Positions 2,237-45,300 of a stretch of DNA of 64,000 nucleotides are shown here, piece by piece. Source of the stretch: Tubulanus polymorphus. Its lineage: Eukaryota > Nemertea > Palaeonemertea > Tubulaniformes > Tubulanidae. The position numbers and the translations under genes are program-made. Each line of letters starts with the position of its first letter. The first letter of the stretch is position 1. The stretch lies in NCBI RefSeq assembly GCF_964204645.1, contig NC_134026.1, positions 11,062,450-11,126,449 on the forward strand, given 5' to 3'. The notes beneath the pieces were generated by a model. That model was not told where the DNA came from and did not search any database. It worked only from the letters and a program-made list of their open reading frames with translations.

Positions 2237-2314
2237 AACTAGGGGTCCAGGGACACCATGCCCACTTGGGAAGTGGTTTCCAATGCTCAACAATCTAACA
2301 ATTTCAATATTCAA

Positions 2315-2482
2315 CGCCCCCTGGTGACCATATACAAAAACCAATGATCTTGAACCTCACCACAATCATAGAACATGTCAGCAGCTACGATTTTGTAATT
2401 GATTGTGATAACAAAATATGTCTCGTTACCAATTCAATATGGAAATACTAAGTATTCTACTATTCAACGCCCCCTGGTGACC
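2315..2482 (+). promoter_or_regulatory. Two CTCF-like motifs in HINE copy 1
   Basis: CGCCCCCTGGTGACC occurs at 2315-2329 and again at 2468-2482, 153 bp apart. The reverse complement differs from the core consensus CCASYAGRKGGCR at only one position. A third site expected near 2596 is cut by the MITE. Binding is inferred from sequence only. Confidence 0.35.
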
Positions 2483-2603
2483 ATATTTAAAACCATAGAA
2501 CATGTCATAAACTACAACTTTGCAATTGATCATGGTAACAAAATATGCCTAGGTACCAATCTAATAAGGAAATACTAAGTCATTCTACTATTCAACGTCC
2601 CCT

Positions 2604-2713
2604 GGGTCCAGTTCCACAGTTCTGAGTTAAGATTTGACCCTGGGTTAAAACATTGAAAATGGACTAACTTTAACTCAGAGTTAACTTTAACTCACAACTG
2701 TGGAACTGGGTCC
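2604..2713. mobile_element. 110-bp MITE with ~18-bp terminal inverted repeats, copy 1
   Basis: It begins GGGTCCAGTTCCACAGTT and ends AACTGTGGAACTGGGTCC. The interior is made of GAGTTAA/TTAACTC motifs, so the whole element can fold back on itself. A second copy of exactly the same length lies at 24110-24219 in the opposite orientation. Comparison with HINE copy 2 (near 43441) shows the unoccupied sequence: this insertion replaced or deleted about 10 bp (ggtgaccata). No clear target-site duplication is left. Superfamily not assigned. Confidence 0.8.
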
Positions 2714-3334
2714 TAGAATAACTAATGTCCTTAAAACTCACCACAATCATAGATGATGTCATGAGCTACAACTTTGCAATTAATTGTGGTAACAAAATAT
2801 GCTTAGGTATCAATATAATGTGGAAAAACTTTTTCCGAACCTACCAATGAGTACTGATGATACCAAGATGGCCACCAATTGCGTCACAATTGGCCGATCA
2901 AAAAGACCTGGCTCAGGTATAAAACAACCCTCTCCAAAGAATACCCATCACAAATTGCAAGGAGAAATGGCAAACCAGTAGGAAGCTACATGACTCAGAA
3001 ATTGGGCCAAAATTGACATTTTTGGGCACTAAAAAGGTCATAGGACGGCCATCTTGAGTCCGATCGACCCAATTTTTCTTATGGTGATGGGCCCTTGGGG
3101 GATCCAAATATATACGAAAGATCAAGGTAATTGATTTAAGCGTCTTCAAAATTTCCCTCAAAAAGTGTAAAAAGTGCTGATTTTGACGAACAACAATGGC
3201 CACCTGTCGACCATCTTGATTCTGAAGGTGTGTCTAGGGTAGATACAGGTATAAACCAAATATCAAGACATTACCTTGAAGCGTCTTCAAAACTTCCCAA
3301 AATAACTGGAATCCGTCTGGTGTGGTCAGTAGCC

Positions 3335-11444: not shown

Positions 11445-12427
11445 CATGTTCACACACCAAAAACATACAATTCACTACAACAATAACATAATTCTCAAAA
11501 CTCTCGAACAGTGGAAGTATTCTTTTCATTATTTGAAGTAAACATCTTTCAATTAATAGAGAAATGACTACAAATTGTTTAAAATTTACATATGAAGCTT
11601 GAATGATATGCAGTATTCTGTGAAGCCAGTTTTAATATGCTATGATGCTGTTTCATGTTATTGATACACCTCAAACAAGTTCACGATTTTATCACATGTA
11701 TATACACACTTAGATAAACGAAGTAATGATCTTGACACAGACCTTAGAGTAACCAGACTGATTACTCCGGGCACGTATATATTTGATTTGCATCGTCCAT
11801 GTAATCAATGTTGTTCAGAATTACAAAATTTTTACATTACAAGTATTAACGTCATTTAATAGCATATACGCCCAAAGATTTACAGTGCGTGTAGCCAATA
11901 ATTGGATTTATTACCAACACGCAAAAATGGCGTTTTTACCTCCTCACGTAATTCATGTGTATCGTTTCAAAAATTTAACACGCGGTCTTGTCGAATCTTG
12001 AAAATCCTAACATCCTATACGTATCATATTGATTTATTGAAAATGCATACGAGATTCAAGGTACCCCGATGGACGACCCGACGTTTGGTCCTGACCCACA
12101 TCAGTCGTTATGTTTTTTCTTCCCCCATCATGCCTAATGTCCCCTGTAAAGAGTTCAACCTTCTGACGCACTGTGCTGCGGTCCTCACTGTTGGGTAGGT
12201 TCGTTACCAGACGTCATCGCTGAATACAACTACTGATTGGGACTGTGTGATCAAATGACGTATAAGTAACGTTTGTGACTGTGTACGCAACATTCGCGTC
12301 GCATCGGTCCATCGGCGCGCAGGATTATCAGCCAACCAGCGGCGGCACTGTGGTTGCTGATCGGTCTATCACAGCTACCATCACTTCTTCACTTGCGCGG
12401 GTACAATCTAGTACGCAACAAGTGGTC
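11445..12427. other. Upstream flank of the UNC-93 gene
   Basis: No exon recognised. The reading frame of the UNC-93 first exon stays open back to about 12266 (in-frame TAA at 12263-12265) without an ATG before 12428. The transcription start or an upstream untranslated exon probably lies in this interval, but no promoter motif is convincing. Confidence 0.4.
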
Positions 12428-15400
12428 ATGAACTTAGAAGCAGAAGCTGTACGTACAATGGATATACACGACAGGGATTCCGAAAATATCAAAATTTACG
12501 ACATGACGACAGAAAAGGTAGATCTTCTATCACGGTGCAAGAATCCAGGCAAATTAGAAACAGTATCTACGCGGTATTATACTCACGAAATGAACGAAAT
12601 ATCACCAAGTGATAATACGACGACCGTGAAAACACCGAAAACCAACAGCGGTGGCGTCAAAAACATATACGTTCTAGGATGTGCATTTATGATGGTCAAT
12701 ACAGCCTTTATTTCGTTGCAAAGTCTACAGAGCACGTGGAATGCCCAGAACGGTCGAGGGGTGACATCTCTAAGTTGTGTTTACGGTGGAACTGTTTTGT
12801 CGTGTATAATTGCGCCACTTGTGATAAAACACGTGGGAACGAAATGGTCCATTGTGTCAGGTTTCGGAGTTTTTGCAGTTTACGTTGCCGTACATTTTTA
12901 TCCCAAACATATGATACTCATACCAGCATCTGTCGTATTGGGGATATTTCTTGGGCCAGTTTGGATCGGACAGGCCACCTATCTGGCGACCACGGCCTTT
13001 GTGCACGCCATGGATTTGAAAAAGTCTTATGCCAACACGTTGACCCGGTTCAATGGGATATTCTGGTGCGTATTTCAACTTTCTCACATTTGGGGAAACT
13101 TTCTCTCAGTGGTCATGCTGCAAAACGAGGAAACTTTATCGATGAATATGAGGAATAACTTAACGATGCGGCCTTATCTGTGTGGTGTCGACGACTGTGG
13201 ACGCCACGAATCGGACATAGATATAGCAATTTTACCCGACAATTCGGTAAATATGCTTTTGAGTGTTTATCTCGGTTGTGCTATGATGGGGATGTTAATA
13301 ACGATGGCTTTACTGGAAACAGCCGAATCCACTACAGAATACAGCTGGCAATCATCAAAAGCGTCCAGCCTTAGCATGATGTGTGCGACGTTGAGAATAC
13401 TGATCGACCCCCGGGTTCATCTGCTCATGCCGCTAGTCACATTTACTGGATTAGCTCAAGGTTTCATCTTCAGTGACTTCACTAAGGTAAATATCAATAT
13501 CACAATTTATGCGTGTGCAACAGCAAGATATTCCTCGTCTGATCCCGACAGTCACTAATTACCACATCGCTACGTGATTCGTCAACAAAAGACGATTCAG
13601 TAACTCGCCAGCACCATGCCATCTAATATCATCGTCCAGGAATTAATGACATTTTCCGAGTCATTAACTGTAAAGATGGACTGTTGCCCCGCGTCTATGG
13701 GTCACGTCTACCAACGAATTCAACGATGAGGATAATCCTTGCTTGGAAAATAATGCATTATGTTTCATTCTAATGGAGATCGTATACTTATAGTTTGCAT
13801 AGATTCATCAATCTGGTATACGTTAAAACTTGTGTTCTGGTGAGAGCTGATCAACGGGCTTAGAGTACAAACCCAAGATCCTGTAAGATCAAATTCGTAA
13901 TTTTAATCTAGTATTTTCATTATCACCGAGGAGGTCGTTACAAACAAAATACAAAGACTGAAGATAACTGTGATCCGTTTTTTCATACCAAAAAAGTCAT
14001 AAGATTTAAAGGTTCTATCTGAGTGCAAAATTTCAGATCACAAAGAAGCATTCCGAATTAAGGATATCTGGATCTTTCGGCTTCACTGAACTCGGGACCG
14101 ATTTCCTTTTCTAACTTAAGAAAACTGCCATGGAACGCTTAGTTTTAGATCATATAAGAGATACGGGCATAGTTCTGGAAATGAGAGAATGTGAACAAAT
14201 CTAAAGGGGTTGTTTAGTGCCGAGTTGATTTGAAATTAGAGAGCCTTAATGAGCTAAAACTTCAGTATTGAAGGAGCACACCTTTTCTTTGAGAAATAAT
14301 GATACAGGGAACCAGGGTGTGACCGATGCCGTTTTGCTCGCAAACAGACTATGAAATGCGTTGTCACATTGGTGGAGCGATTATCACCTTCAAGTTAGTT
14401 GATGCTGCGCAATAATGAATGCAATTAGATACTAGTTGGGGCAATGTTTGTCCCGTGGGCAGTGTTCAATCTGTTTATTTTACAAAAGTATTTTACAACA
14501 ATAAGACTCGTTGTGGCAACGTTCTTTACCAACACGTTTTGCGACGTATGGAAATTTGCCTCCAATAATCAAGTTTATTTTTATTCCTGTTACTAAATAT
14601 GGCTGACATGATGTAACCCCTGGCGTTCGATAATTACTTTCAGCGCATGCGACCAACCGAACTGAAATGCGCCTGAAGCTTCAATTCAATATCAGCACCA
14701 GCGCAGCTCTTCATTGAACGCACATTTCCTATTTTCAAGTTTAATGATTAGTAGATTAAGAAAATAGATAATACCAATTATACGGAAATAGACTAATTTT
14801 TTGCACCTTTATCGATTACCCATGACTAGGCCAGGACATGGTCATTCTACATGATAGGACCGGTATCAAACGGTTTGATGAAATATAATACAAATATACG
14901 TAGATCTTAGCCATGGCCATGTGAACTGGCTCTTGTTCGACAGCGATTAAACAGGATGTATGATTTTAGTACCAGTATGAAATGGTTCTTCCAACATAGA
15001 CTATATATCCAACACGTGGTTGCTTTACTGTTTGGACTTGCATTCGAGTCGCAGCATCTTCCACCAATCGTCTGTTTTATCTCTTCATTTTGTGAGGCTG
15101 GTTGTTTGCTCAGAACTGATAAGGAAAAACTATTCAAATACCTAGCCAGGAACTCGTAACTGAGTGTAGCTGCAGTGCTGGCGGCTTGTGGTCACACATC
15201 GACGAACATTATCTGGGTTTACATTCGTCTGCGTGGTGTGGAGTGACTTTTTTCGTATAGTGAAATTAAATTCAATGCAAAATCACCTAAATCATTCATA
15301 CGTTACATATACATAAATACTGTATATGAATTTAAGACGTATTATTTTACCATTTTTCATTAGTATAGATAGCTAGGAAGTACTGCACGACGGCCGTATT

Positions 15401-42374: not shown

Positions 42375-45300
42375 CTGTAACAGGGGAATATTAAAAAGAT
42401 TTTGTTAAGATGTTAAACAAGTAGTTCTAGTACTAGTCGAAACGACCGGTGATGACGAAACGACTGTCAGAGGGCGACGACCGGGTGCACCAATATTTCT
42501 TATTCACTACATACAGAAGGTTCGCCTTAATTGATTCCACTAAAGCCCATGGCTTGTTTCCAGTCGAGCTCTATATTACGGAAGCCTGTTGGTGACATAC
42601 GAGATGATTGTTTCAAGATTTCGACTTATTATGTCAAAATTCGTGTTACGTATTTCCATGCCGAAATTCGAGTTATTTTTATGTCGAAATTCTACTTATT
42701 ATGTACATGTCGAATTCCGACATAAAATAGCTCAAACTCCGACAAAAATAACTCGAATTTTGACAAAAAGATAATATTTCGAATCTCGACATAATACATC
42801 GAATTTTGAAAGTCGAAATAATGAATGTCAACCATAAACGGGCTTCGTTTCTACATTGAGTTATTCGACGAAAGAAATTCAACAATTTCACGTGTAGGCC
42901 TATATCAGACCTTCGCGATCACCTTCCCTATTTTGCCACGGATTATAATCTACGATGCCCGTAGGAATTGTTACCTCCATACTTGCATATTTGTGATTTA
43001 CAGTCCAAAGTTTATTCATCAAAGTCTTAGTAATTTCGTGTCTTTAGATATGCTAACTAGGAGTCCAGGGACACCATGCCCACTTGGGAAGTGGTTTCAA
43101 ATGCTCAACAATCTAACAATTTCAATATTCAATGCCCTCTGGTGACCATATACAAAAACCAATGACCTTGAAACTCAATACAATCATAAAACATGTCAGC
43201 AGCTACGATTTTGTAATTGATTGTGATAACAAAAAATGCCTCGTTACTAATTTAATATGGAAATACTAAGTTAATCTACTATTCAACGCCCCCTGGTGAC
43301 CATATTCAAAACCCAATAACCTTGTAACTCACCATATTCATAGAACATGTCATGAACTACAACTTTGCAATTGATCATGGTAACAAAATATGCCTAGGTA
43401 CCAATATAATAAGGAAATACCAGGTTATTCTACTATTCAACGCCCCCTGGTGACCATATAGAATAACTAATTTCCTTAAAACTCACCACAATCACAGATG
43501 ATGTCATGAGCTACAACTTTGCAATTGATTGCGGTAACAAAATATGTATTGATACGAATATAATATAGAAATACTAAGATATTGTATTATTCAACGCCCC
43601 CTGGTGGCCATATACAAAAAACAATGAACTTGAAACTCACCCAAATCATAGAACACGTTATACGCTACAACTTTCTAATTCATTATTGTAACAAAATATG
43701 CTTAGGTAACAATATAATGTCGAAAAACTTTTTCCCACCTACGAATGAGTACTAATGACACCAAGATGGCCGCCAATTGCGTCATAATTGGCGGATCAAA
43801 AATACCTATCTCAGGTATAAAACATCCCTTTACAAAGAATACCCATCACAAATTGCAATGAGAAATGGCAAACCAGTAGGAAGCTACAGGACCTAGAATT
43901 CTGGCCAAAATTGACATTTTTGGGCACTAAAAAGGTCATAGGACGGCCATCTTGAGTCAGATGGACCCAATTTTTCTTATGCTGATGGGCCCTTGGTAGA
44001 TTCAAATATATTCGAAAGATCAAGGTAATTGATCATACCGTCTTCAAAATTTCCCTCGTAAACTTCGAAAATGTGTAAAAAGTGCTGATTTTGGCGAACA
44101 ACAATGGCTGCCAGTCGGCCATCTTGATTCTGATAGGGCTAGTTTTTGAGCTGAAGATGTGTCTAGGGTAGATACATGTATAAACCAAATATCAAGACAT
44201 TACCTTGAAGCGTCTTCAAAACTTCCCAAAATAACTGGATTCCGTCTACGGACGGACGAACGGACGGACGGACGGACGGACGAAAAGTGAACGCAATAGC
44301 CCGCTGGGACTAAAGTCCCAAGTGGGCTAAAAACGATATGCTTCTTACCTGCGGGAATGTTCCTTTCGTTGTACATATCTTGTATATGGCAACACCCGGA
44401 ACGCAAAGTATTGACGAGAGAGCCATCAACCATCCTATTAGATTGGCCCACCATGGGTAAACGTAGCCATCATAAGTCAGAGGTTTATACATGACCAAGC
44501 CAAATATCATGATAAACTGCATAAAATTTAAGAATATCAGGTTTTATTGACTGCATTTTGTAGATCGCGTAGGTGATTGGGATATGTATTTTTCGTTATT
44601 TCTTTTTGAAAGGAGCATGTTAGTTGCCACGTCAACCAGAATACACATGGCTTGGGCTACAAGAGATACATCTATGTCGAAATGATATTTGTGAAATTGG
44701 ACTGAAGTTGAAGACCTAAATAGTTAACCTACCGCAAGGAATATTGGACCAAAATATCGCCAGCAAACCCTCCAGTATATGCCCGGGCGAAATCCTATCA
44801 TTTCTTTGATGTCATCCCCAAAACGGTCAACACCTGTAATAACATACACCAACGCTTTCAGCTATCGCTATATACATGTCTACAAAACGGTATAGAAGTA
44901 TACATGTATAATATACATGTAAAAAACAGCAAGTATCACGTCAACAAGGTTAGAATTAAGTAAGTTGAGAATTGTCATAATCTGTTCGAATTTAGTAATA
45001 GAATGAGCTCAGCCTGGTCTTATCTCAAGTCTGAACCCGATCTTGTTTGAAAATTCAGATTTTGGTTTAAAAAATCTTAGGATCATTTTTTTAGATTGGT
45101 TGGACCAAAGCCAACTCATCTGAAAACAATGACACTAGACAACTAACCGTAGAACCAGGAAACAGCTAAAGATTCGAAGAACACGGCGAATAACATCGAA
45201 TACCCAGCTGCATATTTATCCATTAGGTTCACAATGAACACCCCTCCCTGGAAAAACAAAGTATAACTCAAAAAGTATAATTTTCCTCATAAATAAATCA

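Follow-up and report, generated by a model that had tools for sequence, protein, structure and literature searches.

In the oyster, Cg_HINE and the related Pearl elements are described, in those parts of the source available to us, as non-autonomous elements of the Helentron type with a 5' subTIR, an inverted repeat and a 3' subTIR, a microsatellite that is mostly of 4 nucleotides (GTCY; GTCC in several) and tandem arrays of mostly 140-180-bp repeats with few units on average (PMC7492417). The element described here, a non-autonomous Helentron (HINE) of Tubulanus polymorphus, has the same anatomy, a likeness of descriptions rather than of compared sequences, and it bears CTCF-like sites, whereas the main text on Cg_HINE leaves CTCF unmentioned. 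DINE-1 and the HINEs of mites are characterized, in the sections at hand, by subTIRs, insertion into TT or T-rich sites and tandem repeats in some copies, with an inverted repeat adjoining the 5' subTIR and a microsatellite in DINE-1; they share this anatomy with the present HINE, and CTCF sites go unmentioned in the same sections (PMC4067079). The closest functional precedent is the ISX Helitron of Drosophila miranda, which disperses a binding motif of the dosage-compensation complex and for which the accessible portion of the source reports selection (PMC6598467). As such, it too is an invertebrate Helitron family that spreads the motif of a chromatin complex, but the present HINE differs in carrying CTCF-type sites, in carrying them in an array and in that no selection was seen after insertion.

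A large tandem repeat that bears CTCF sites is known from the X chromosome, namely the CTCF-binding macrosatellite DXZ4, as described in the part of the source at hand (PMC3491370), whereas the array of the HINE is short and mobile. In mammals, up to 25% of CTCF, NANOG and OCT4 sites are embedded in transposable elements, according to a statement cited in the accessible portion of PMC6598467. The present HINE is likewise a mobile element that carries sites in bulk. Binding to such transposon-borne CTCF sites is established in mammals, and many of the carriers are retrotransposons; the HINE is unlike them in that it is a rolling-circle element, has several sites in tandem and is known from sequence alone. 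In the open-licence literature, we found no work joining CTCF and Helentrons, and among the matches listed there no CTCF or Helitron title concerned such a carrier. The spread of CTCF sites by transposons in mammals and Helentrons with repeats of ~160 bp in oyster are each known separately, and their combination looks new.

Anatomy, position and copies of the element

Within the window, a 64-kb stretch on contig C2 of the 267.8-Mb genome, a complete HINE occupies positions 43057 to 44333 and runs on the minus strand from a 5' end at 44333 to a terminal CTAG, its 3' end, at 43057; the earlier note had rightly seen an element here but had set its limits at 43055 and 44331. Read 5' to 3' on the minus strand, it consists of a T-rich edge, a subterminal repeat, a hairpin, a (GTCC)n microsatellite, a unique stretch of ~500 bp, the tandem array and the 3' end. 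The 5' end (44298-44333) combines the T-rich edge with the subterminal repeat GCCCACTTGGGA and an adjacent inverted repeat, the hairpin of which was predicted by DNA folding of 44281-44335 (-9.9 kcal/mol, z = -3.7), and is adjoined by the microsatellite at 44248-44282 (TRF period 4, 8.8 copies). Four 154-bp repeats make up the array at 43126-43729 (TRF period 154, 3.9 copies, 79% matches), and the 3' end (43057-43089) holds the subterminal repeat TCCCAAGTGGGC and the terminal CTAG; a 6-bp stem predicted near this end does not fold better than shuffles (z = 0.06). By direct reading, the two short subterminal repeats (43078-43089 and 44316-44327) are inverted with respect to each other, and an exact search recovered them in most of 40 HINE copies.

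The ends of the element were read from these 40 copies, of which L019, L020 and L023 were removed for the edge counts, along with 3 more at the 3' edge and 4 more at the 5' edge that had no match to the search string. In element orientation, a T follows the 3' edge in 34/34 copies and TT in 33/34, and TT precedes the 5' edge in 33/33. No stop-to-stop frame of at least 90 aa, the threshold applied, was found wholly within the HINE. Thus 43057-44333 is a near-textbook non-autonomous Helentron with a TT target, and the Helentron-type assignment of the earlier note is borne out by subterminal repeats, hairpin, microsatellite and TT edges. Its placement in an intron of a neurotransmitter transporter was also correct, as the HINE lies in the intron that follows an SLC6 exon (44349-44516, minus strand; Pfam SNF profile positions 475-523/524, E = 2.5e-13), with 15 bp between its edge and the splice donor; donor and frame were both read, and element and gene have the same orientation. 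Elsewhere in the window, an open frame at 12266-13558 encodes an UNC-93 domain (Pfam PF05978, E = 3.5e-22).

A second, damaged copy at about 2239-3319 (minus strand) ends short of the microsatellite and of the 5' end. It had been described as holding three units against the four of the complete copy; it has two intact CTCF-like sites (2312-2330 and 2465-2483) and a third that is disrupted. A MITE-like insertion of ~108 bp at 2606-2713, with inverted arms CCAGTTCCACAGTT.../...AACTGTGGAACTGG, sits in this third site, where it has taken the place of ~8 bp of unit sequence and so removed one edge of the site.

The genome scan for the element yielded 1,125 exact matches to a 19-mer of its 3' end, with 0 for the control, and hence there are probably at least ~1,100 copies; an exact 23-mer of the HINE site gave 3,014 matches, again with 0 for the control. 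In the search for whole copies, 40 of 4,081 first-look candidates were scored and gave 48 matches, and 40 complete or nearly complete copies of 92-100% identity were fetched, the HINE of the window being 98% identical over its whole length to the five nearest others. On contig C1, a perfect-core unit lies within 1.5 kb of 49 of the 100 3' ends listed, and the distance from core to end, counted with perfect-core places up to 17.27 Mb only, assigns four units to 37 of these copies, three to 7 and other numbers to 5, so that the array is indeed variable in length, as had been proposed. On this 32-Mb contig, the first HINE with an exact signature appears at 6.3 Mb, with none in the first 6.3 Mb, and the listed 3' ends, which reach 17.3 Mb, are densest at 12-17 Mb; CTCF cores outside HINEs begin at 34 kb and are frequent near the contig end. 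Four copies on different contigs (L018, L019, L020 and L023) have flanks in common, and the HINE was therefore probably copied along within another repeat.

CTCF-like sites and the host CTCF

All four 154-bp units contain a CTCF-like core, counted as matches to the 13-bp core CCASYAGRKGGCR on the minus strand, which confirms the central observation of the earlier note, including the common orientation of the sites, and extends the fit from the three units it had named to four. In unit 4, the site TGGCCACCAGGGGGCGTTG (43592-43610) matches the core at 13/13 positions (43595-43607) and scores 25.8 bits. The three others match at 12/13, namely unit 3 (43438-43456, core at 43441) and unit 2 (43284-43302, core at 43287), both with the sequence TGGTCACCAGGGGGCGTTG and 20.6 bits, and unit 1, TGGTCACCAGAGGGCATTG (43130-43148, core at 43133), with 18.0 bits. 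Their spacing of 154 bp, which the earlier note had placed near a nucleosome repeat, is shorter than a typical repeat of that kind. Two further 12/13 matches, at 2315 and 2468, belong to the second copy. The core at no more than one mismatch thus occurs 6 times in the 64 kb, against 0.49 expected, a number reached by 0/100 shuffles. Scored with a 19-bp CTCF matrix, nominally JASPAR MA0139.1 (maximum 30.6 bits), these six sites rank above all others in the window, at 18.0-25.8 bits, and the next-best site, outside both copies, reaches 14.2 bits; under a first-order Markov model, 64 kb would be expected to contain 0.4 sites that exceed 15 bits. Across the 40 copies, taken with 100-bp flanks, 36 have four sites above 12 bits, two have three, and two have five, of which the fifth lies in the flank.

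The exact core occurs 3,900 times genome-wide against 35 for its reversed control, which excludes a different motif in this lineage, one of the findings that the earlier note had said would speak against its reading. HINE-type perfect sites, TGGCCACCAGGGGGCRTTG, account for 1,034 of these (control 0), or 27% of perfect cores, and the HINE is the largest single source of perfect cores identified in the genome. The excess is 111-fold for all cores and 82-fold for the 2,866 that lie outside the HINE signature, figures that are approximate because the reversed control arranges its CpG differently. The relaxed 12-mer core gave 10,709 matches against 259, and the form with T at core position 1 (the TCA form, as in units 1-3) combined with the non-HINE ATGGC variant gave 493 against 13.

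Along C1, the HINE signature is present in 28 of the first 100 cores listed. Flanks were read for 70 of the 100, namely all of the first 30 and a further 40 from the remaining 70, comprising 1 HINE core and 69 of the 72 non-HINE cores; the 30 left out are 28 of the form CCACCAGGGGGCR (27 with the HINE signature) and 2 others. Of the 69, 41 have unrelated flanks and 28 fall into four repeat clusters (17, 6, 3 and 2 sites), and the core is therefore not the property of one repeat. With the HINE removed and one site kept per repeat cluster, 45 representatives remained, in which every flank column holds at most 0.28 bits; core conservation in this sample is given by construction, because the sites were picked by their core, and only the flanks are informative. 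The idea that HINE sites share with the host motif a departure from the human matrix, namely T at matrix position 17, was rejected: non-HINE sites have no preference there (T in 14 of 45), and the 100 listed matches to CASYAGRKGGCRTYR are mostly of the HINE form CACCAGGGGGCRTTG.

The repeat-borne cores outside HINEs (28/69, on one contig) include an old dispersed repeat and the context of a 76-bp satellite. The former, of ~100 bp and diverged, has the core in the common context ccagctatcCCACCAGATGGCGtgac... at 17/70 sampled sites (L053, L056, L064, L072, L114, L115, L121, L122, L130, L134, L138-L140, L143, L145, L147 and L148); these were found through the core, and conservation of the core in them is therefore not demonstrated. 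Another 6/70 cores (L049, L054, L055, L057, L062 and L075) have a common context close to CCACCAGATGGCGagtgtgattt, and 76-bp tandem arrays are present at four of these six loci (L054, L055, L057 and L062).

The genome also encodes a CTCF orthologue, the absence of which the earlier note had named beforehand as evidence against binding. For a zinc-finger region of human CTCF, identical to residues 266-577 of PDB chain 7w1m_H, the two best matches are neighbours at C3:3430379-3431720 (62% and 52% identity), and reading of the locus revealed eleven C2H2 fingers, with 173/310 aligned residues identical to human. Fingers ZF3-7 of CTCF are known to read the core. At the helix positions -1, 2, 3 and 6, ZF3-5 are identical to human at 12/12 positions, and ZF6 and ZF7 keep 1/4 and 2/4, respectively, so that the affinity of the orthologue, above all for TCA cores, is not readable from the human matrix. 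Matches to C2H2 zinc fingers are also crowded on C8 (11.3-11.6 Mb) and on C10 (3.2-3.4 and 10.9 Mb), which looks like local expansion of zinc-finger genes.

Decay and constraint of the motif

The earlier note had proposed comparing the conservation of the motif across copies with that of the rest of the unit, and here the outcome is divided: the motif is conserved between the units of the array but not among inserted copies. Between the four unit consensus sequences, 17/19 motif columns are invariant compared to 75/135 of the others (p = 0.003), a contrast that represents four units of one lineage. In 37 of the 40 copies, aligned (L019, L020 and L023, whose flanks match those of L018, do not enter the mutation counts), the rate of private mutations is 6.05 per 1000 within the 19-bp motif, against 6.91 elsewhere in the array (p = 0.36), and 7.28 within the 13-bp core; neither in this test nor in the next were copies chosen by the motif. 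Shared variants are rarer at the motif in the same copies (5/76 columns vs 78/540, p = 0.037), and other stretches of the HINE are equally free of them.

For a second test, genome matches to the flanks of 15 masked bases were collected, once for the motif and once for a control segment of unit 1 chosen beforehand for having no shared variants in the 37 copies; the rows used are the first 100 listed of 952 and of 853 matches, all on C1, and two unit-diagnostic positions were set aside. Non-CpG, non-diagnostic changes affect 37/1100 motif positions (3.4%) and 34/1300 control positions (2.6%, p = 0.33), and CpG changes 27/200 (13.5%) and 26/200 (13%), respectively, among the matches listed. Inserted copies thus decay at the motif like the control, and for them the earlier note's third ground for refutation, motif positions that mutate as fast as their surroundings, does apply. 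Among the 100 listed motif matches, 71 retain the 12-mer and 42 the full core, which units of the TCA form cannot retain. Decay of the motif slower than that of the rest of the HINE was seen neither in the 37 aligned copies nor in the 100 listed matches, and both tests led us to reject protection of the motif in inserted copies. Our first divergence figures (0.5-0.6% for three of the four motif copies and 3.4% for that of unit 1, with an element-wide value of 3.6%) overstate the difference, since the value outside the motif is raised by columns diagnostic of subfamilies. The diverged relatives L150-L155, which retain the box, were likewise rejected as evidence of constraint, as they had been found through the motif; by direct reading, neighbouring units in L151 and L153 that were not picked by it have lost part of the box.

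CpG positions were lost 4-5 times faster than non-CpG positions in motif and control alike, which suggests germline methylation. Methylation of the CpG in the CTCF core hinders binding in mammals, and if the same holds here, many HINE copies may be unbound.

Competing readings and meaning of the arrays

Taken together, the HINE repeat is best read as a putative CTCF-type site that is genuine by sequence and has been spread passively by an otherwise ordinary HINE. We give a probability of about 0.7 to the reading that an ordinary HINE bears a CTCF-type array, the unmethylated sites of which are candidates for binding and most copies of which are neutral after insertion. Constraint that is seen between units and subfamilies but is missing once copies have inserted fits selection acting on the source copies, or chance within a single lineage, and it does not fit general domestication by the host. 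We consider it very improbable that the arrays are domesticated insulators or loop anchors that selection maintains at numerous loci, the transporter intron among them. The presence of several co-oriented sites in each insertion, thousands of sites genome-wide and an element 15 bp from the SLC6 splice donor might be expected of such a role, but the motif decays no more slowly than the control in 100 listed matches that were not chosen by the motif, and its singletons in the 37 aligned copies are as frequent as those around it. Domestication as a general rule is thus disfavoured.

The box might instead have nothing to do with CTCF and serve a need of the element or repeat, such as maintenance of the array or recognition by another zinc-finger protein, with a merely coincidental match to the core. 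That other parts of the HINE are equally invariant among copies would agree with this, as would the report, in the available part of the source, that some oyster HINE monomers have two relatively conserved segments of unstated function in otherwise dissimilar sequence (PMC7492417). However, a 13/13 match to a motif that is 111-fold over its control in the same genome has a chance of ~2e-5 in one 154-bp unit, as estimated from the genome-wide reversed-pattern control, an orthologue with identical ZF3-5 contacts is present, and the core is kept by units whose consensus sequences are only 74-83% alike overall, all of which makes coincidence unlikely. A less improbable alternative, though still one we hold only tentatively, is that the site serves the HINE itself: germline chromatin bound by CTCF would be open, a source copy there would be transcribed or copied, and lineages bearing the site would win. 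Conservation of the box between units is supportive of this idea, as are the four other repeat clusters of the sample that bear the core, and a deficit of shared variants but not of private mutations is the pattern that selection confined to source copies would leave. However, these are modest statistics from one family, and the equally invariant stretches elsewhere in the HINE have no such explanation.

Under the favoured reading of an ordinary HINE with a CTCF-type array, the element would be copied by the Rep/helicase of an autonomous partner and inserted into TT by rolling-circle transposition (the Helitron_like_N domain gave 58 matches in the genome, some in long open frames, none of which could be linked to the ends of the HINE), and the array might gain and lose units by slippage or unequal exchange. 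Host CTCF may bind those sites in which the CpG is unmethylated; if so, each insertion would drop an array, mostly with three or four sites in the same orientation, of which one is strong and the rest are weaker. During multiplication of the source lineage the site was probably retained, and most inserted copies would be neutral and decaying, with methylation probably leaving many of them unbound; the host may use a few, as with any transposon-borne site. CTCF binding at the HINE, insulation and any effect on genome folding or on the transporter are putative. Here we speculate, as a possibility that we regard as doubtful, that most perfect CTCF-type sites of this genome are borne by repeats (27% by HINEs, and 28/69 sampled non-HINE cores by other repeats), that one and the same CTCF core would thus have arisen in several repeat families unrelated to each other, and that HINE arrays act as mobile, length-variable, methylation-gated multi-site insulators that reseed the three-dimensional genome.

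These arrays could bear on the evolution, in animals other than vertebrates, of the part that CTCF plays in chromosome folding. In echinoderms, boundaries are enriched in CTCF motifs without the orientation pattern of vertebrates, as stated in the part of the source at hand (PMC13317027), and a squid is the one spiralian for which a 2023 review, in its accessible text, could cite an enrichment of CTCF sites at the borders of domains (PMC10658181). Thousands of near-identical CTCF cores, set in co-oriented arrays at known positions, represent a natural experiment, in which young or polymorphic HINE insertions could bear on boundary formation, on site orientation and on switching by CpG methylation. 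The spread of CTCF sites by transposons, known from mammals, would then have an invertebrate counterpart with a rolling-circle element as the carrier.
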